Source: Palaeococcus ferrophilus DSM 13482 (lineage in GTDB: Archaea > Methanobacteriota_B > Thermococci > Thermococcales > Thermococcaceae). Taken from it: a stretch of 64,000 bases of DNA. The notes beneath the pieces are model-generated. The model made no database searches. It was not told the origin of the DNA and was given only the letters and a program-made list of their open reading frames with translations. This document shows positions 34,645 through 49,118 of the stretch, in pieces. Within the stretch, counting starts at the first letter, position 1, and each line of letters starts with the position of its first letter. The DNA lies in NCBI RefSeq assembly GCF_000966265.1, contig NZ_LANF01000006.1:62001-126000 (forward strand), read 5' to 3'. The position numbers and the translations under genes are program-made.

Positions 34645-34660
34645 GATACTGTCAGGATAA
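34645..34660 (+). repeat. Left terminal inverted repeat of IS6-type element
   Basis: GATACTGTCAGGATAA is a perfect 16-base reverse complement of the right end at 35410-35425. Confidence 0.9.
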
Positions 34661-35352
34661 CTGGGGCATCACCTCCTGGAACCATTCGGTAATATTGCCC
34701 GGAGGACTACCAAGCGTGGAGTGCACCCTAACAAAATTATACCAGAAAGCAAACAGGAAAATAAACCTGTGAACCCTCCTCCAATCCTTACCCCTGAAAT
34801 TATTCCAGAAACGCTTAATCCGCTCCTTAACAGTCCTAAACCAACGCTCAACGTAATTCCTGGGCCCAAAAATCACGTGAATAAACGGCAATTTCAAACC
34901 ATTAAACGCAGGCGGGTACCAGACAGCCCCATCAACCAGAAAAACCGGCGTTCCCTCACAGGATTTCAAAACAGTCCCAATGAACCTTTTAGCAATCCAC
35001 AGGTTCCTGGTGGGAGTAATCCAGACTGTTAACACTTCCGGCTCTCAATGTCAATAGCCGCCCAGAAGTACCACTTCCTCCCGTTGATCTTCACCACAGT
35101 CTCATCAACTGCAATGAAATTCCGCTGTTTCTTCACTGCAAGGGTCCTGAACTGGTAAACAGTCTCCCCGAACTTTTGAACCACTTCCCAGACGGTTGTG
35201 TGACTGATTCCGAGGATTCTGGCGACTTGTCTGTAACTCAAACCCTGTAAGTACAGGCTTATTGCCTGAATTTTCTTCTCCACTGGGATTTTATTCCTGC
35301 GAAAAGGTTTTAAGGCTGAAACCAACCAGTAAATAATGGTTTCAGCCTTCAT
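34652..35352 (-). pseudogene. IS6-family transposase, frameshifted
   Basis: An IS6-type DDE transposase. The first part (35029-35352) has an N-terminal helix-turn-helix (KKIQAISLYLQGLSYRQVAR) and the first catalytic Asp in FIAVDETVVK. The second part (34652-35035) has the second Asp in VFLVDGAVWYPP and the Glu in FRTVKERIKRF. Together they make about 230 residues, the usual length. The frames meet at GCCGGAAGTGTTAA: restoring one G would give the continuous ESREVLTVW. All three catalytic residues are still present, so decay is recent, or a sequencing error or a recoding event is possible. The ATG at 35352 has GGTGGAG before it. Confidence 0.88.
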
Positions 35353-35409
35353 ATTTCTCCACCACTTTTTCTGAGGTGACACAACCAGATTTAAACATAA
35401 CCCCTCAGC

Positions 35410-36505: not shown

Positions 36506-37543
36506 TCAGAACACGTGGAGAGCGGTCACCTTGAAGCCGACGTAGACGGTCCTTCCCTTCTCTATCCCCATCTCAAGCATGGACGAGCGCGTGATGAATG
36601 CCCTGAGAGGGAGGTTCCCAACGAGGAGGTGCACCCTAACGAGGGCTCCGAGCTCCTCAACGGAATCAACAACAGCTTTGAATTCGTTCCTAGCGGAGGT
36701 CCTAACGGGCTCAAGGGACAGTATTATGTCCTCCGGCCTTAAACCAACGCGGACTCTACCCTTTGCCTCAACGGGGAGCTCTATCTCAACGCCGTTGGCC
36801 TTCAGCGTCCTCCCTTCGGCAACACCTTCTATTATGTTCTCAAAACCCAAAAAGCGGGCAACCTCTTCACCCGCAGGCCTCGAGAAGACCTCCCTCACGC
36901 TCCCGACCTGGACGAGCCTTCCATTAAGCATAACCCCCACGCGGTCACCCAGACTCACAGCCTCCTCGAAGGAGTGGGTGACGTGCAGAGCCGTGAAGCC
37001 GAGCTCTCTCCTCCAGCGCTTCATCTCGCCGATGAGCTTTCCCCTTGTTTGGACGTCGAGGTTCGCGAAGGGCTCATCCATGAGGACTAGGGGCGGTTCA
37101 ACCACCAGAGCTCTCGCTATTGCCACGCGCTGGCTTTCCCCCCCGCTCAGTGTCTTAGGCCTTCTTCCGAGGAGGTGGTCTATGCCAAGGACTTCAGCGG
37201 TTTCCCTTACTTTTCTCTCGATTTCAGCCTTTGGGAACTTCCTAAGCCTCAGCCCGAAGGCTATGTTGTCGAAGACGCTCATGTGCGGGAAGAGGGCGTA
37301 GTTCTGGGGGATGTAAGCCAGACCGCGCTTCTCGGGAGGGAGGGTCGTTACGTCCTCACCGTTCAGGTAAACGCTTCCCCGGTCTGGCTCAATGATGCCG
37401 GCTATAACTTCGAGCAGAACCGTCTTACCCGCTCCGCTCGGGCCCAAGATTATGAAGTGCTCACCCTGCTCTACGCTGAAGGTGATGTCCCGCAGGCGGA
37501 ACTCTCTGTAGTCCTTAGAGACTTCCTCAACCCTGAGGGCCAT
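36506..37543 (-). CDS. wtpC: Tungstate/molybdate ABC transporter ATP-binding protein WtpC
   Basis: A 345-residue ATPase of the Wtp importer, which brings in tungstate or molybdate for tungsten enzymes. Walker A GPSGAGKT, signature [11 protein letters not shown], Walker [13 protein letters not shown], switch HVTHSFEEA, plus a C-terminal TOBE-type oxyanion domain ([14 protein letters not shown]). The ATG at 37543 follows GGTGAG, which forms part of the stop of the TOPRIM gene. In relatives wtpABC is contiguous, but here two foreign-looking genes separate it from wtpB. Confidence 0.93.
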
Positions 37544-37548
37544 AAAAC

Positions 37549-38280
37549 TCACCGAGCAATGGTGTCTAAAAATGTCCTCAACCTCGACTCATCTAGAAAC
37601 TCCTCAACGAGCTCACGGTTTCTTCTGACCAATGTCTCGATAAAGTTTCTATATAGTCCCGACATGGAGTCTCCTTTGTATTTTCTGGCAATTGCCAAGA
37701 GATGCATGACGTCTTTTGGAGTGAGCTTCCTTCCTAAGTCATTGCTGAGCTGACTTATAGAATTCCCCAGCTTTGAGAGGCTACTTTCCCTCTTAGCGAG
37801 GAGAGCTAGTAAGAGCTCGAGTTCTTTTTTTATGTCGATGTCCTTTGCATCAAAATCAACATCTCCAATTCCGAATGGAACGATCTTTATCCCATTTACC
37901 AGGAGATAACTATCTTTTACTTCAGGCTCAAAGCCTCCCCCCTGCAAAGTGCTCTTAGCCCAGTTTAGAATGTCTTCCTCAGTATCAACGTCCCTTGCAA
38001 CCCCAATGATAGCGGGTTTATTCTCAAATCTCTCCACTGCTCTGAAAATCAATCTAAGGGCATTTTTGAGGTTATCCTTTCCATTGGTGTGCCAAACAAC
38101 CAGCTGGACACCGTTTTTACTCAGACAGATAGCCTTTGATAATTCTCTATTTTTTGAACCCCCTTCCGAAATTGGCAGATTTTCACAGTTGATCTCATGG
38201 AATCCATAGAGTTTCTTTATTATAGGAAGAAAGAAATTAACATCCGTTCTACCTTCCAAAAGCAGAAGTCTAATCTTCAT
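37549..38280 (-). CDS. TOPRIM-like DUF3226 protein, partner of AAA ATPase
   Basis: A 243-residue protein with a TOPRIM-type fold. The acidic residues are in [13 protein letters not shown] (E9 and D13 spacing) and [13 protein letters not shown] (D97, D99). The shape matches the DUF3226/DUF4435-like nucleases found next to AAA ATPases in split OLD or PARIS-type systems. A helical tail (about 130-243) is rich in Leu and Lys. The ATG at 38280 has GGGGATGA before it, three bases after the ATPase stop, so it is coupled. The DNA is AT-rich against its neighbours. The call of a defence role is inferred. Confidence 0.75.
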
Positions 38281-38283
38281 ATT

Positions 38284-39304
38284 TCATCCCCTCAGGTCTA
38301 GTCCTAGGGCTTCTCTTAGTTTCTGTGATTCTTCAAATGTCTCCACAGAGGCTGTCATTTTTCCATTCTCGCGCTTCATGTAAATCACCCTTCCGTCAAC
38401 CTTGCTTTCTAAGCCATATTTGATCAGCATGTCGATAAGCTCAAGGCTGTGGGTAGTTAGAAACACTTGGACGTTGTTTTCTTTTGCCCCCTTAACTAGG
38501 GCCTTAGCCATGATTCTCAGTGATTTGGGGTGGTGAAAAGCTTCAGCAGAGTCTATGAGAAGGTACCCTCCTCTTAAAAGCGAGGACAGAAAAGCTATAA
38601 TCATGGCGTTTTTGAATCCTTCACCCATCAAGTAATAGGGATAAACCCCATATTTGGTCTCTACGTGAAGTATCCATTTATTTGATTTAAATAACGGACT
38701 AAATCCTTCAACTTCCGGATAGGCCTCCTTGAGAATTTTTATGCTTTTTTTTAACGACTTTCTCTTCGTATGCAATGGAATAAAGGCTCTCAACGTATCC
38801 AAACTTACGGAGAGTCAGAGGGGTTATGAATTCAAAATTAAGACTGGGGTCGAATTTTGATGAGAGCAGGAATGAGGATAATACACTGTTCTCAACAAGA
38901 TGATGAATCTGAACTCCAGTATCCAACTTTGGCGGCTCCTTATCAATCTGCTTTAGTGTAACTTTAAGCGTGGGCAGTGTGTTGAGTCCTGCTATCTCAT
39001 TTTTTAGCACGAGTTCCCACGAAGTACCCTTCTGTACAGATATAATCTTTGCAAGTTCTGCCTTTGTAAAGAATAAGTCCTCTATAGCCTGATGTCCATA
39101 CCATCCACGCCATATTAGGATTTCTTGAAGAAAACTCCTAACTGACTGACCTCCTCCAAAAGCAGCTAAAAAAAGAGATAGCGCTTCAAGCACACTCGAT
39201 TTACCTGCATTGTTTTTACCTGCAATTACGTTAATTTGGCCAAGATTATTTAGCTTCAATTTCTCTATGCCTCTAAAATTCTCAATTCTAAGAGAGGTTA
39301 TCAT
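38284..39304 (-). pseudogene. OLD/RecF-like AAA ATPase, frameshifted at an A8 run
   Basis: An SMC-type AAA ATPase (AAA_15/AAA_21 class). The upstream part has Walker A IAGKNNAGKSSVLEAL in MITSLRIENFRGIEKL. The downstream part has a Walker B-like LLIDSAEAFHHPKS and the terminal FLTTHSLELID. Two frames are involved, 38708-39304 and 38284-38802. They join at a run of eight A on the coding strand (T8 at 38745-38752); with seven A the text reads continuously VVKKSIKILKEAYPEVEG. So one base was gained, or slippage restores the frame. The first codon is the ATG at 39304 with GGGG upstream. A TATA-like CTTTAATTA lies near 39335-39343. Confidence 0.8.
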
Positions 39305-39352
39305 AAGCATCCCCTTTTTATTGTCGATGTTACTCTAATTAAAGTTTTATCC

Positions 39353-40099
39353 TCAAGCATTTTTTGACCTCCCGACGAGCCAGCGCAGGAGCACGAATAT
39401 CGTGAGACTGAGCGCTATGAGAACTACGGAGATGGGCCTTGAGGCCCTCAGCCCGTAGTTGTTGAAGTACTCCATGACGAGAACCTGGGCGGTCTTGGGG
39501 TAGTAGGCGACTATCAGTATCGCACCGACCTCGCTTATGGCCCTCGCCCACGTCATTATCGCCCCGCTCGCTATCGAGGGGAACGCCATGGGCAGAGAGA
39601 CGGAGAAGAAGGCCCTCAGCCTGGAAGCTCCGAGGGTTCTCGCGACGTGCTCTAGCTTTTCATCAACGGCAAGGAACCCGTCGCGGGAGGCGTTTATCGT
39701 GAATGGAGCAGAAACGAAGAGCATGACAGCTATTATGCCCGTGTAGCTGTCGAGGATGGCGTTTGAGAACGTGACGAGGAGCATTATGCCGACGACGGAG
39801 TGGGGGATGACTATGGGCACGTCCACGAGAGCCTGGGCGAGGCTCTTCCCCCTAAACTCCCTCCTGGCCAGGACGTAGCCCAGGGGGACGCCGAAGAGGA
39901 GCGCTATGAGTGCCGTGGCCGTCGCGGTGAGGAGGGAGTTGCGGAGGGACTCGATAACCAGCGGATCTTGGAGCGTTTTTACGAGCATGCCCGGGTCAGC
40001 GACCTGCTTGAGGAAAATGACGACTAGGGGAAGGGCTATGTAGATGATTAGAAAGCTCCCAAGTGCGGCGAAGAGGTAGAGCGTGTAGTCCCTGCGCAT
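39353..40099 (-). CDS. wtpB: Tungstate/molybdate ABC transporter permease WtpB
   Basis: A 248-residue permease with about six membrane segments and the EAA loop [21 protein letters not shown] that docks WtpC. The ATG at 40099 follows GGGGGAGGAAC; the frame is open upstream to 40141 but those codons overlap the wtpA end. It is downstream of wtpA and, unusually, followed by the ATPase/TOPRIM pair rather than wtpC. Confidence 0.93.
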
Positions 40100-40137
40100 G
40101 TTCCTCCCCCTATGCTGGAAATTGAAAAATAAAAACC

Positions 40138-41226
<1,089 letters not shown>

Positions 41227-41239
41227 TTAATGGTAAATG

Positions 41240-42130
41240 CTAAAATTCAACACCTATGTCGAGACCGAAGTAGTCCTCCACCTCCTTGAGGAGGAGAAAG
41301 GCCTTGGAGGAATCTATTCCGAGCTTGTCCATGTATTTGAAAACCGTTTCAAGCTCCCTCCTTTCCTGAGGCTCGATCTCGCGGTTTTCGAGGAGGTACC
41401 TCACAACCGCCCGGAAGGCGCCCCGCCAGCTTTCACCTTCAAAATCGAGCCTCCTCCAGAAGCCTTCGTAAACGTAGAGAGACTTGGGTCTCCGGGTGTG
41501 GCTCTTCACGTTCTTGAGACGGGTTATGCCCCTCCAGAACTCCCGGGGCGGGGACGTCACGGACTTCAGGTACTCTATGAGAACTTCCTCCGAAAAACCC
41601 GCCTTCCTAAGGCCCTTAAAGCTCTCTTCAAGGCTCTTTAAGTAGGAGCCGAGGGTTCCGAGGTTCACTATGTTGTCCTTGCTCAGGAGGGAGAGCTTGA
41701 GGGCGCTCTTCGTGGGGGACTCCCCTTCGAGGTTAACCCTGAAAAGAACCCTCTCTTCTATGGGCGTGCCCTCCTCAAAGGCCTTTATAACCACCCACTG
41801 GACGCCGTTCGTCAGAATGCCGTAGCTCACGCCCTGGGAGAAGCAGTACTTGCCCAGCTGGTGGAGGGGTTTGGTCTTCTTGAAGACGTCAACCCCGAGG
41901 TTCTTGGCCTCCACGTAGGCCACGACCTTTCCGTCGAGAATGAGAGCGTAGTCAGCCCTACCCTCCTCCGTCCTGTATTCGGGGCGAACCTCATGGGGGT
42001 TTGACCAGTCCCAGCCGAGGGTGGAGAATATCTCGCCAATTAGGTGCTGCTTAACGGCCTCCTCGTTACCCTCGTACAGCGCCCTGTGCTTTTCGACCTT
42101 CTCGACGACGTGCATTATGGTGCCTATCAT
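41240..42130 (-). CDS. Type I restriction HsdR N-terminal-like nuclease domain protein
   Basis: A 296-residue protein. The first half matches the N-terminal endonuclease domain of type I restriction HsdR: a helical start, RTEEGRADYALILDGKVVAYVEAKN (D...ExK motif of PD-(D/E)XK), and QLGKYCFSQGVSYGILTNGVQW. The rest is helical and unrecognised. There is no HsdM or HsdS nearby, so it is a solitary member, as is common in archaea. The ATG at 42130 has a short-spaced GAGGG site. Confidence 0.82.
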   Translation of the reverse strand: MIGTIMHVVEKVEKHRALYEGNEEAVKQHLIGEIFSTLGWDWSNPHEVRPEYRTEEGRADYALILDGKVVAYVEAKNLGVDVFKKTKPLHQLGKYCFSQGVSYGILTNGVQWVVIKAFEEGTPIEERVLFRVNLEGESPTKSALKLSLLSKDNIVNLGTLGSYLKSLEESFKGLRKAGFSEEVLIEYLKSVTSPPREFWRGITRLKNVKSHTRRPKSLYVYEGFWRRLDFEGESWRGAFRAVVRYLLENREIEPQERRELETVFKYMDKLGIDSSKAFLLLKEVEDYFGLDIGVEF

Positions 42131-43900: not shown

Positions 43901-44000
43901 TCGCACCACCAAGCTTAGTAAAATTCTTAAAGTTTAAAAGCTTTTTTGAGGCAGGGTTTATAAAGGATTAGGGGGGTATTTAAGCCGGCAGGTGAGCGAA

Positions 44001-47000
44001 ATGAAGGCCGTATACCGGGAGATGTGCCCCAACTGCGGGGACAGAATAAGCGACGAGAGGCTCATCAAGAAGAACCCGTGTGAGGAATGTCTTGAATCGG
44101 ACGTTCACGCTCATCCGTATTTTGACCTTCTAAGGGCCGTCCGCGAGGCCCTAGCCGTCAGGGGCACGCTCAAGGAGTGGGAGAGGCTCTACACAATTGA
44201 GAGTCAGCTGGGGGAGGTCGAAAAGTTCTTTATCGAGGCCACCGGAAATAACTTCTGGAGCGCCCAGAGGACGTGGGTGAGGAGGCTCCTCAAGGGCAAG
44301 AGCTTTTCTATAATCGCCCCAACCGGAATGGGGAAGAGCGTTTTTGGCTCCTTCATGGCATACTACTACGCCCTCCAGGGAAAGAAGAGCTACATCATCC
44401 TCCCCACCACCCCACTCGTGAAGCAGACGGTGAAGAGACTTCAGGCATTCATGGAGAGAACAGGGAAGGAGGTGAAGCTGGCGTACTTCTACAGCGGGAT
44501 GCGGAAAAAGGAGAAGGAGGAGATGAACGCCAGGATAGACGGCGGTGACTTCGAGATACTCATAACCTCCGCCCAATTCCTCGCAAGGAAGTTCGAGAGG
44601 TTGGAGGGGTTCAGGTTCGACTACATCTTCGTTGATGACGTTGATGCCTTCCTCAAGGCGAGCAAGAACATAGATCGCTCCCTTCTCCTCCTCGGCTTTA
44701 CCCAGGAGGCCCTGGACAAGGCGTGGGAGCTCGTGAGGCTGAGAAAGCAGATAGGGAAGCTCCTCAACGGCAGGAGAACGGAAGAAAAAGAGGAAGAGCT
44801 GAAGCGCGTTAACGAGGAGATAGCGAAGAAAGAGGCCGAACTGAGAGAGTACATGGCGCAGAAAAATATAGGAACGCTCGTGATAGCCTCGGCAACGGGA
44901 AGCGCGCGCGGCGACAGGATAAAGCTCTACCGCGAGCTGCTCGGTTTTGAGGTCGGAAGCGGGAGGAGCGCACTGAGAAACGTGGAGGACGTCTACCTCT
45001 TCCCGGAGAAGAGCGTGGAAGAGCACGTGGAGGGGCTCCTCGGGAAGCTCGGGCCAGGGGGGCTGGTTTTCGTCCCCATTGATCAGGGGATAGCCTTTGC
45101 GGAGGCACTAACCGCGAGGCTCAAGGAGAAGGGCTTCTCCGTGGAGCTCGTCTCCGCCAGGAGCAAGAAGGGCCTCGAGAAGTTCGAGAACGGAGAGGTT
45201 GAGGTCTTAGTGGGGATGGCGAGCTACTACGGCAGCATTGTCAGGGGTCTCGACATGCCGGAGCGCGTAAGGTATGCGCTCTTCACGGGGGTTCCCAAGT
45301 TCAAGTTCAGCCTCGACCTGGAGGGCCCGACGATATACCGTGTCCTCGGACTGATAAGCGAGATTTTTGACTTCCTCGACGATGAGGACAGACGCGAGGG
45401 GGAGAGGGTTTACGCAAGACTGCGGAGACTCATAAGAACCATGCCCCAGTACGAGCTCGTCAAGATAGAGGAGGCACTCGCCGAGGGGTTACCCTTAGAG
45501 GGCTACCACAACCACGTTCTGGACGTCTTCCGCACGGCGGTGGAGTTTCTAAAGCGCGTCCTCAGGAAGGAGGAGGTTGTGAAGCGCATAGAGGAGGACC
45601 CCTTCATAAGCCTCAAGCGCGAGGGGGATAAGGTCTTCATCGAGATACCCGACGTCAGGACGTACATCCAGGCGAGCGGAAGGACCTCAAGGCTTTTCGC
45701 GGGCGGAATAACCAAGGGCCTCGCCCTCACGGTGGTTGACAACGTCAAGGTCTTCAACGGTATGAGGAGGCAACTCCGCTGGCGCTTCCCCGAGTTCGAG
45801 TGGAAGAGCCTCGAGGAGGTAAACCTCGATGAGGTGCTCAGGCAGATTGACGAGGACAGGGAGAAGGTAAGGCTCGTCCTCGAGGGGAAGCTCCGGCTGG
45901 AGAAGCCCGACCTCGTTAAGTCCTCACTCCTCATAGTAGAGAGCCCCAACAAAGCGAGAACCATAGCCAACTTCTTCGGACAGCCGAGCAGGAGGCGCAT
46001 AGGCGAGCTGGTCGCCTACGAGGTGAGCATTGGAGACAGGATGCTCACCATCTTGGCAAGCGGGGGCCACATGTTCGACCTCGTTACGAACGAAGGCTAC
46101 CACGGCGTTGAAATCAAGGAGGAGAACGGGAAGTTATTCTTCCTTCCAGTTTACGACACCATAAAGCGGTGCCGCGACTGTGGACATCAGTTCGTTGACT
46201 GGGAGGAGAAGGGCGTCTGCCCGAGGTGTGGAAGCAAAAACGTGCGCGACGCCCTCGAAAACGTTAAGGCGATGAGGGAGCTGGCGCAGGAAGTGGACGA
46301 GATACTGATAGCGACCGACCCCGATACGGAGGGTGAGAAGATAGCGTGGGACATAAGGAACGTGCTCTCGCCCTACACGCCCAACATAAAGCGCATAGAG
46401 TTCCACGAGGTCACGAGGCCTGCCATACTGAAGGCCATAGCCGAGGCGAGGGACGTTAACGAGGCGCGCGTTGAGGCGCAGATGATCAGAAGGATAGCCG
46501 ACAGGTGGATCGGCTTCGAGCTCAGCACGCTCCTCCAGAAGGTCTTTGAGAACTACAACCTCTCCGCGGGGAGGGTTCAGACGCCGGTTTTGGGCTGGAT
46601 AATCGAGCGCTACCGTCAGTTCAACGAGGACAAGGCGGACTTCACGCTCCTCACCCTCGAAAACGACCTCAACGTGTTCATAGAAGGGGAGAAGCTCGAG
46701 GACGTGGATAAGGTCGAGGTTGTCAGGGTTGAAGTGGAGGAGAGGGAGATAAACCCCTTCCCGCCCTACACCACCGATGCACTCCTCCAGGACGCTTCAA
46801 GATTCCTCAAGTTCTCCGCCCCCCAGACCATGCGCCTCGCGCAGGACCTCTTCGAGGCGGGTCTGTGCGTCACTCCGGATACACTAGTTAGCCTTGCCGA
46901 TGGAAGGATCGTGGAGATAAGGGAGGCTGTTGAGAAGTCCGAAGATAGACTGCTATCTCTAAACGGTCTCAGGCCAAAGGAGGCAAACGCGCTCAAGTTC

Positions 47001-49118
47001 TGGGAGATTGACTGGAACGGGCCGCTTAAGGTGGTAAAGCTCAAAAACGGGCACGAAGTTAGGGCAACCCCTGATCACGGCCTTCTCGTAATGAGGAACG
47101 GCAAACTCGGCTGGGTCTCTGCGAAGAACATCCGGGAAGGTGACTACGTTGCCTTCGCCTACAACACCGGACACCCCGGAAAAGATGAGTACACCCTCCT
47201 CAAACTTCTGATAAAGCTTGGGATAACGGATGTTATGGCAGAGTTCGAGAAAGAATACTTCGACTCCACCCTTGCTCCGCTTGTGAAAGATCGCGTCCGG
47301 ACGAGCACAAAATACAAATACCTCCGCAAGCGTGTCCTTCCGCTCTATCTCCTTCAGGAATGGGGAGTTGACGACTACGAACCGCACGTTAAGTCCCTCT
47401 ACCGTCAGAGGAGCGGTTCAAAGCCCATACCCAACTTCAAACTCGACGAGAGGTTCTGGTACCTCTTCGGTCTCGTTCTGGGCGACGGAACCCTGAGGGA
47501 GAGCAAGGTTTTGATCGCGCAGACCCCTCTGAAAAAAGTTAGGGCAATACTTGAAGAGACCCTTCCCTTCATCCACGTCTTTGAAACAACAACTCAGGTT
47601 GGCTTCTCGAACTCGATCCTCACAGAGGTCTTCAGGAGGCTCGGGGCGAGGAAAGGCAAGCTCCACCCGCTTGTATTTGGACTTCGTGAAGACTACATCA
47701 ACGCAATGGTTGCGGGCTATTTTGACACGGACGGAACTTTCTCGATCCTTAATGACAGGAAGGGACCGAACTTCCGCGCGATTCTGACTTCAAAGAGGGC
47801 CGATGTGCTCAAAATGTTCAGCGTTTACCTATACCAGATCGGGATAATGAACTACCTCAGAGAAGATGAGCGCACGGGAGTTTGGGACTTAGTAATAAGC
47901 AACAGGAGCCTCGAGAGGTTCAGGGAGAAAATTTATCCATATCTCCGGATTAGAAGGGCACAGTTCGACGAGGCTTACTCGATTTACAGATCATCAAGAC
48001 GGGCCTTTGAAGGGGACTTACTCCCGGTAGCTTCGGTATTCAGAAATCTGAAGTTCGGAAGAGGGGCCAAAAACAGAATATTGAAGGAAACCGGAATTGA
48101 CGTATGGAACTGGCTCAAACACTCGGAAGGGGAGATCCCAAGGGACAAACTCACCAAGGTGCTCGAATACGCCGAAGAGGGCCCGGAGAAGGAGTTCTTA
48201 AAGTCCCTCGTTGGAGCGGGGGTTACGTGGGTCAGGGTGAAGGAAATCAAGGAGGAGCACTACACCGGAAAGCTCTACGACTTCACGACGACCACCGAAA
48301 ACTTCATCTCCAACGGTGTCGTCTCCCACAACTGCACCTATCACCGCACAGACTCAACGCACGTGAGCAACACGGGAATAGGCATAGCCAAGGAGTACAT
48401 TGCGGACGAGATAGGGGAGGACTATTTTAAGCCGAGGAGCTGGGGCGAGGAGGGAACCCACGAGGCCATCCGCCCCACCCGGCCCATAGACACGGGCAGG
48501 CTGCTCCAGCTCATAAAGGACGGCATCATAACCCTCTCAAAGCCCCTCACAAGCGGCCACTTCCGCCTCTACGACCTCATATTCCGCCGCTTCATGGCAT
48601 CCCAGATGACGCCGGCGAAGGTGCTCTACCAGAAAGCCACCGTCCGGGCAGGCGGGAGGGAAGTTGAGGTGGAGGGCTATACGGAAGTCATCTACGACGG
48701 GTGGAGCAGGATAAAGCCCCTCCCGCTCTGGAAAGTGCCCCCGCTCGAAGAGGGAGCACGCCTCAAAGTCAAGGAAACCAAGACGTGGAGGGCCCCGAGG
48801 GTTCAGCTCTACACGCAGGGCGATATCATCGCCCTTATGAAGGAGCGCGGAATCGGAAGGCCCTCGACCTACGCAAAGATAGTGCAGACTCTCCTCTCTC
48901 GCTACTACGTCATAGAGACGAGGGGCAAGAAGCGTCTCGTTCCCACTGAGCAGGGCATCAAGGTGTACCACTACCTGCTCAGCCGCTTCAGGGAACTCGT
49001 AAGTGAGGAGAAGACGCGCCAGCTCGAGGAACTCATGGACAAGATAGAGGAGGGCGGCCTCAATTACATGGATGTACTCAATGATATGTACAAGGAGATA
49101 AAAATATATCTGCCGTGA
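44001..49118 (+). CDS. rgy: Reverse gyrase with intein
   Basis: A 1705-residue precursor that would splice to about 1216 residues. Reverse gyrase makes positive supercoils and marks hyperthermophiles. It has an N-terminal zinc finger (CPNCGDR and NPCEEC), helicase-like Walker [10 protein letters not shown] and VDDVDAF (DEAD-box variant), a second zinc finger ([15 protein letters not shown]), and TOPRIM residues in [14 protein letters not shown] and [14 protein letters not shown]. The topoisomerase IA active tyrosine is in TYHRTDST. An intein occupies 46866-48332, just before the Thr-Tyr. The ATG at 44001 follows AGGTGAGCG. Divergent from the membrane protein, followed by trmBL2 as in other Thermococcales. 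Confidence 0.97.
46866..48332 (+). mobile_element. Intein with LAGLIDADG homing endonuclease in reverse gyrase
   Basis: A 489-residue intein in frame. It starts with Cys ([17 protein letters not shown], block A) and has a TxxH block B in [10 protein letters not shown]. Endonuclease blocks are [13 protein letters not shown] and [13 protein letters not shown]. It ends [10 protein letters not shown], with Cys as the +1 extein residue (48333). The site GL/CTYHRTD puts the insertion two residues before the catalytic Tyr, so splicing is needed for activity. Inteins at this site are known in Thermococcus and Pyrococcus. Base use is less GC-rich than in the host gene. Confidence 0.95.

Follow-up and report, generated by a model that had tools for sequence, protein, structure and literature searches.

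A polymorphic ATPase-TOPRIM gene pair at the wtpB/wtpC junction of Thermococcaceae as a candidate split OLD-type antiviral module

PARIS (AriA/AriB, class 4 OLD) is the closest worked-out counterpart of the gene pair analyzed in this study, and its AriB component, a Toprim nuclease, is reported to cut tRNA (PMC12409363). OLD classes 3 and 4 have been reported to be restricted to bacteria (PMC12796447). Cran1, the first archaeal OLD protein to be characterized according to its description, is a cell-cycle ATPase-nuclease that is not defensive, and Cran1-type genes are conserved across Sulfolobales (PMC12796447).

This study analyzed a 64,000-nucleotide stretch of the Palaeococcus ferrophilus DSM 13482 genome (hereafter the window; the genome is G000, and other G-numbers denote the genomes compared with it), in which an ABC/SMC-like ATPase gene and an OLD-like TOPRIM gene, coupled by 3 bases, occupy the junction between wtpB and wtpC. 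We consider it fairly probable that the pair is an accessory, polymorphic two-gene conflict module of split OLD type, most likely antiviral.

The cassette and its two proteins

The genes were arranged on the minus strand in the order wtpB, ATPase, TOPRIM/DUF3226, and wtpC, and the identities of wtpA, wtpB, and wtpC were secured by equivalog matches (Table 1). The initial annotation had placed two genes 3 bases apart between wtpB and wtpC in an AT-rich block with its own promoter-like element at the upstream edge, and each of these points was borne out. The GC content of the cassette was 41%, compared with 57-58% in wtpB and wtpC, and the corresponding GC3 values were 0.35-0.44 and 0.70-0.80. 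The element GATAAAACTTTAA was present, with its TTTAA located 34 nt before the ATPase start, and a TTTAA box 33-40 nt 5' of the ATPase was found again in all 11 of the non-Pyrococcus carriers. The TOPRIM stop supplies the GGTGA site of wtpC, as claimed, in nearly all carriers. The insertion itself was correctly recognized, but its site is common to 16 other species and is not peculiar to this genome.

Table 1. Features of the wtp locus in the window
Feature	Positions	Strand	Supporting match
wtpC (tungstate ABC transporter ATPase; downstream flank)	36506..37552	(-)	NF040840 E 3e-170
DUF3226 TOPRIM-like gene, 243 aa, intact	37549..38280	(-)	PF11536 E 6e-14; PDB 2p62 PH0156 E 6e-45
OLD/AbiL/PDC-M38A-type ATPase gene, frameshifted; 341 aa with one A fewer	38284..39310	(-)	PDC-M38A E 7e-39, AbiLi E 4e-35; 16 intact homologues
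C-terminal fragment ORF of the ATPase, frame +1 (Walker B LLIDSAEAFHHP, TTHS, DLRG tail)	38284..38802	(-)	
N-terminal fragment ORF of the ATPase, 200 aa (Walker A, middle region)	38708..39310	(-)	
A8 run, the frame-shift point of the ATPase	38745..38752	(-)	
Promoter-like GATAAAACTTTAA 5' of the ATPase; divergent alleles have a similar A-rich/TTTAA box	39339..39351	(-)	
ATGCTTGAGG, match to the wtpC start at empty junctions; in this genome also contains the wtpB end	39351..39360	(-)	
wtpB (permease; upstream flank)	39353..40141	(-)	NF040839 E 1e-107
wtpA (substrate-binding protein)	40138..41166	(-)	TIGR03730 E 2e-122

Three further features of the window were recorded. A transposase-like gene (34652-35382, minus strand) with an HTH and IS240-type DDE fragments, lying approximately 2 kb from the cassette, consists of two ORFs that overlap without a homopolymer; it is an unlikely mover of the cassette, because carriers have wtpC immediately downstream and no such element was noticed there. 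A stand-alone HSDR_N protein (type I restriction R subunit N-terminus; 41240-42130, minus strand) is encoded just 5' of wtpA, where no adjoining methylase was seen. As judged by translation alone, a 1708-aa ORF (43992-49118, plus strand) resembles reverse gyrase with an intein-like insert that includes SHNC.

The first gene had been described as an SMC-type ATPase with the Walker A motif GKNNAGKS and a terminal TTHS. Both motifs are present, but they do not share one open frame, and the frameshift had been missed: frame 0 encodes 200 residues and stops at 38708, and Walker B, TTHS, and the C-terminus lie in frame +1, joined at the A8 run. Reading 7 A in place of 8 yields a continuous 341-aa ATPase. 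The frame was intact in all 16 of the other wtp cassettes, where the extra base is absent, and the read-through product was 85% identical over its full length to that of the nearest relative (G023), with a dN/dS of about 0.10. These values imply that the ATPase was intact until recently, that the extra base is an error, or that slippage bypasses it; the one-base lesion may accordingly denote a recently dead module, a slippage-expressed one, or a mis-sequenced one. Because of the frameshift, the window copy may be inactive. For this genome only, and compatibly with the explanation that we prefer, we put the chance that it is a dead relic of a module that is otherwise functional at slightly below even: the lesion and the 16 intact cassettes point that way, and the sequence conservation relative to G023, the intact TOPRIM gene, and the possibility that the A8 run is a sequencing indel or a slippage site point the other way.

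The ATPase proved to be kin to OLD/PARIS-type ATPases, as had been proposed. It matched Pfam AAA_15/AAA_21, and the PADLOC models that matched the read-through protein were PDC-M38A (E 7e-39, residues 3-340), AbiLi (4e-35), AriA (3e-22), and OLD (2e-17); the 15 related ATPases all behaved in the same way (best PDC-M38A E 4e-43). The catalytic Glu of Walker B is replaced by Ser, invariantly among the 15 aligned wtp-resident alleles (LLIDSxEAFHHP), in a segment that aligns to IIEEPEMYLHP of the solved OLD nuclease 6p74. The wtp-resident ATPases thus lack the catalytic Walker B Glu expected of the OLD family, and because of this replacement they probably hydrolyze ATP slowly or not at all. AlphaFold2, run in single-sequence mode on an intact homologue, gave no usable fold for the ATPase (pLDDT 36).

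The EGxxD and DxD acids attributed to the TOPRIM-like DUF3226 protein were found as EG.TD and RDVD; in alignment numbering, these TOPRIM motifs are E9-G-x-x-D13 and R96-D-x-D99, and E9, G10, D13, R96, D97, and D99 are invariant in 15 TOPRIM alleles. Pfam assigned DUF3226 to all 15 members. An OLD-type TOPRIM is indicated through relatives of the window protein: the G004, G006, G009, and G010 copies exceeded the curated cut-off of PF20469 (OLD-like_TOPRIM), and the window protein, itself without a PF20469 match, aligns to them over its full length at about 45%. Matches of related copies to the PADLOC models PDC-M38B and mad4 likewise point to a TOPRIM. The window protein also aligns over its full length to PH0156 (PDB 2p62; E 6e-45, about 39% identity). 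The PH0156 sequence is the TOPRIM of the G005 cassette, which likewise lies between wtpB and wtpC, and the Pyrococcus label of the group g2 was inferred from this exact match. The predicted structure of the TOPRIM (pLDDT 69) had 2p62 as its best structural match (E 2e-15); beyond 2p62, the search with this model returned no other TOPRIM, and the next matches were Rab GTPases at a TM of about 0.25, which is not meaningful. Because the fold model recovered no further TOPRIM, the assignment rests on profiles and residues. A literature search found no paper on DUF3226, PH0156, or PDC-M38. If the defense reading holds, it places DUF3226, whose structure is solved but to which no function is assigned, in a likely context.

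Distribution and exchange at the wtpB/wtpC junction

Among 94 Thermococcaceae genomes surveyed, 17 carried the pair of a short DUF3226 gene and an ATPase gene, in every case between wtpB and wtpC with the ATPase first (in G063, the contig ends within the TOPRIM gene). Adjacent wtpB and wtpC without a cassette were found in 57 genomes, of which 53 share an identical overlapping junction; within the family, wtpB and wtpC are commonly contiguous. The initial annotation had raised fixation of the pair in all Thermococcales as a refutation of its proposal, and the pair was instead polymorphic between sister species.

DUF3226 occurs in three kinds in these genomes. Besides the short paired copy, nearly all non-Pyrococcus Thermococcaceae have a core copy of approximately 340 aa with an extra N-terminal domain, and the one core gene examined (L002:1201-2229) has no adjoining ATPase. 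The third kind belongs to a second ATPase-DUF3226 pair, found in three genomes of Pyrococcus (L169:4291-6015) and located away from wtp, which has the 3-base coupling, a DLRG tail on the ATPase, and an intact EE at Walker B. A profile search with the ATPase (E<1e-40) returned the same 17 genomes at wtpB-wtpC, this more distant Pyrococcus pair, and one ATPase-only copy. The latter, in G022 (L060:1963-2994, minus strand), lies directly 3' of wtpC, is 50% identical, has a diverged C-terminus, and has no adjoining TOPRIM.

For the distribution outside the phylum, the analysis covered plasmids along with 14 control genomes (M. jannaschii). The 58-kb large plasmid of M. jannaschii carries the pair and was the sole match in the plasmid collection; there the pair lies near NurA and an AbrB/MazE-family gene, and none of its neighbors is annotated as a wtp gene. 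Two genes annotated there as "AAA family ATPase" (L128:7994-9726) are one ATPase with an in-frame stop (HV*TEYG) at a conserved Glu codon, next to an intact TOPRIM gene. A scan of genome contigs returned a single relative, itself among the 17 carriers. No TOPRIM relatives were present in phage records or viral contigs, and ATPase matches in viral contigs turned out to be distant P-loop proteins.

The wtpA-wtpB gap of many relatives (L033, L036, L050, L106, L081, L041-L043, and others) also bears inserts, comprising PIN-domain VapBC-like pairs, MazF-like genes with RHH antitoxin-like partners, an archaeal ATPase gene, and a methyltransferase-like membrane protein. It seems that two gaps of the wtp operon readily take up inserts.

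On a wtpB+wtpC tree of 71 genomes including 15 carriers, the presence or absence of the cassette required at least 11 state changes. Comparison of carriers with empty sisters revealed how the junction had changed. Between G077 and its empty sister G074, the distal flanks were 98% identical and the first 100 nt of wtpC 62%; between G083 and its empty sister G078, the distal flanks were 96% identical and the junction 63-65% on both sides, with 65% in the first 100 nt of wtpC. In both carriers, the foreign tract in wtpC stops just before the WtpC Walker A codons. Because flanks like those of the empty sister enclose a foreign junction piece, an ancestral cassette that was only lost was rejected, and G077 and G083 are, as judged from these alignments, clearly recent gains. 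Among the carriers as a whole, identity dropped further beside the cassette than it did in empty-empty controls (Mann-Whitney test: p 0.001 for the wtpB side and 0.015 for the wtpC side); the carrier G043 has no foreign tract. A stretch resembling ATGCTTGAGG was kept after wtpB in four alleles (G000, G023, G055, and G077) and matches the wtpC start at empty sites. Synonymous divergence between G004 and G006 was 0.08-0.11 within the cassette but 0.20-0.33 in the genes on either side, a difference that is consistent with recent exchange. The cassette is mobile, patchy, and horizontally exchanged between Thermococcaceae.

Exchange also took place within the cassette, where the middle of the ATPase has been swapped between alleles (16-36% identity), which nevertheless have the TOPRIM and the two ATP-binding ends in common. 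Between G000 and G077, ATPase identity is 88% as far as Walker A, falls to 23-36% in the middle, and returns to 88% from Walker B onward; the same pattern was found in G055/G072 and G085/G017, and across the three pairs, identity was 18-36% in the middle and 84-95% from Walker B to the end. At the DNA level, identity between G051 and G017 is 97-100% in wtpB, drops to about 40-60% over most of the ATPase, and reaches 99-100% in the 3' half of the TOPRIM and at the beginning of wtpC; one allele has here replaced another at an occupied site, in a comparison that involves a draft assembly of G051 in which a chimera is possible, whereas G077 is a single-contig genome. In AU tests with 14 taxa, the Walker B-to-end alignment accepted the TOPRIM tree (p 0.14) and rejected the ATPase-N, wtpB, wtpC, and tgtA trees, and the ATPase-N alignment rejected every other tree; the split at Walker B had been picked from the alignment beforehand, which leaves the test partly dependent on the pattern that prompted it. 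These trees indicate that the C-terminus of the ATPase is co-inherited with the TOPRIM and not with the rest of the ATPase. The stretches in or beside which crossovers fall are the wtpB/wtpC overlap, the segment just before WtpC Walker A, and Walker A and Walker B of the ATPase, and the alignments indicate that exchange is by homologous recombination with crossovers in or beside such conserved stretches. A core metabolic operon thus serves as a recombination address for accessory genes. Where dS could be estimated, the pair was under purifying selection (dN/dS about 0.05-0.25).

Possible functions of the pair

Defense is the most likely function of the pair, because the named families that match it best are established or candidate defense systems and the exchange pattern fits an arms race; the family argument is partly circular, because PADLOC contains defense models only. 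The middle region of the ATPase would sense an invader-derived trigger. An ATP-bound dimer, with Ser at Walker B, would hold the TOPRIM and then license it through the conserved C-terminus, the segment predicted to contact the TOPRIM, and the TOPRIM would act as the effector nuclease that cleaves nucleic acid. The single site, the repeated changes of state, the recent gains, the mosaic alleles, the AU tests, and the purifying selection favor such a conflict module, as do the plasmid-borne relative in M. jannaschii and the family matches to defense proteins. Against it stand the absence of any defense-island linkage, with all 17 Thermococcaceae copies in the wtp operon, the lack of a virus-borne TOPRIM relative, the counter-example of Cran1, the ATPase lesions in both the window and M. 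jannaschii, the weak PADLOC matches of the window TOPRIM (E 0.0002-0.0016), and the low confidence of the ATPase model.

The location raises the question of whether the pair instead adjusts the uptake of tungstate or the traffic of tungsten cofactors and stays in the wtp operon so as to be co-expressed. Co-transcription is possible in G005 and G007, where the ATPase begins right at or within the wtpB end, and every Thermococcaceae copy resides in this operon. Yet 57 genomes, sister species included, do without the cassette, most copies have their own promoter-like box, and pairs also occur away from wtp, on the M. jannaschii plasmid and at the second locus in Pyrococcus, so that we regard an operon-linked role as rather improbable. 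A genome-maintenance enzyme of the Cran1 kind would accord with the cell-cycle role of that archaeal OLD ATPase-nuclease (PMC12796447) and with the core DUF3226 gene of nearly all non-Pyrococcus Thermococcaceae; we consider such housekeeping quite improbable for a paired copy that is highly mosaic and present in 17 of 94 genomes, given that Cran1-type genes are conserved across Sulfolobales (PMC12796447).

Precise insertion at a single site with short foreign tracts could also be the mark of an addiction module or self-spreading element for which the wtp junction is a safe harbor, and the wtpA-wtpB gap of several relatives, with its VapBC- or MazF/RHH-like genes, accords with this. We nevertheless find it unlikely, because G022 keeps an ATPase without a TOPRIM, and the TOPRIM is intact beside a broken ATPase in the window and in M. 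jannaschii, so that neither part looks poisonous alone; moreover, the replacement of an allele at an occupied site (G051/G017) is not predicted by homing. In an explicit homing scheme, the pair would cut the conserved, overlapping wtpB/wtpC junction of cassette-free DNA, repair templated by a copy with the cassette would bring the module in with a short flanking conversion tract, and the sensor region would be recombined as well. We give this scheme very little credence; if true, it would describe a homing element built of OLD-type immune parts.

The antiviral conflict module remains our preferred explanation. If it holds, the pair would be an archaeal immune receptor-effector system with a single fixed address, and its diversity would come from swaps of the central module between species. 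Trigger recognition in split OLD systems would then be directly testable by asking whether specificity moves with the middle module.

Comparison with known systems

The best reading of the profile matches is that the pair is of split OLD type and closest to the PADLOC candidate PDC-M38 (M38A + M38B), which likewise combines an ATPase with a partner. The module was therefore not undescribed, as the initial annotation had supposed, in that its architecture already exists as this candidate, although no paper naming it was found. The PDC-M38B model matched up to 12 of the 15 TOPRIMs (best 5.6e-08) and the window copy weakly (E 0.0016); these weak TOPRIM matches, the archaeal DUF3226 branch, and the one fixed site in a metabolic operon set the pair apart from PDC-M38. 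The AbiLi half of AbiL matched all 15 ATPases, whereas AbiLii matched just 1 of 15 TOPRIMs (E 0.009). For MADS, mad4 matched 9 of 15 TOPRIMs (best E 9e-20) and MAD3 matched the window ATPase (E 2e-8), far below its cut-off (34 vs 420 bits); the full mad cluster is missing, and the flanks are wtp genes rather than mad genes.

PARIS resembles the pair in having split ATPase and TOPRIM genes, together with the AriA match (E 3e-22). The AriB model, however, had a match in just one member out of 15 (E 0.002), in contrast to DUF3226 in all 15; the pair is therefore not a member of PARIS, to which the initial annotation had likened it. Class 1/2 OLD proteins and GajA of Gabija share the N-lobe of the ATPase and the OLD-like TOPRIM, seen as PF20469 in G004, G006, G009, and G010, but the pair differs from them in forming two proteins, not one, and in having Ser for the Walker B Glu. 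The distinctive features of the pair are its fixed site, its module exchange, and its Walker B substitution. If our reading holds, the pair adds a split OLD-type system to archaea, where OLD classes 3 and 4 have been reported to be absent (PMC12796447).
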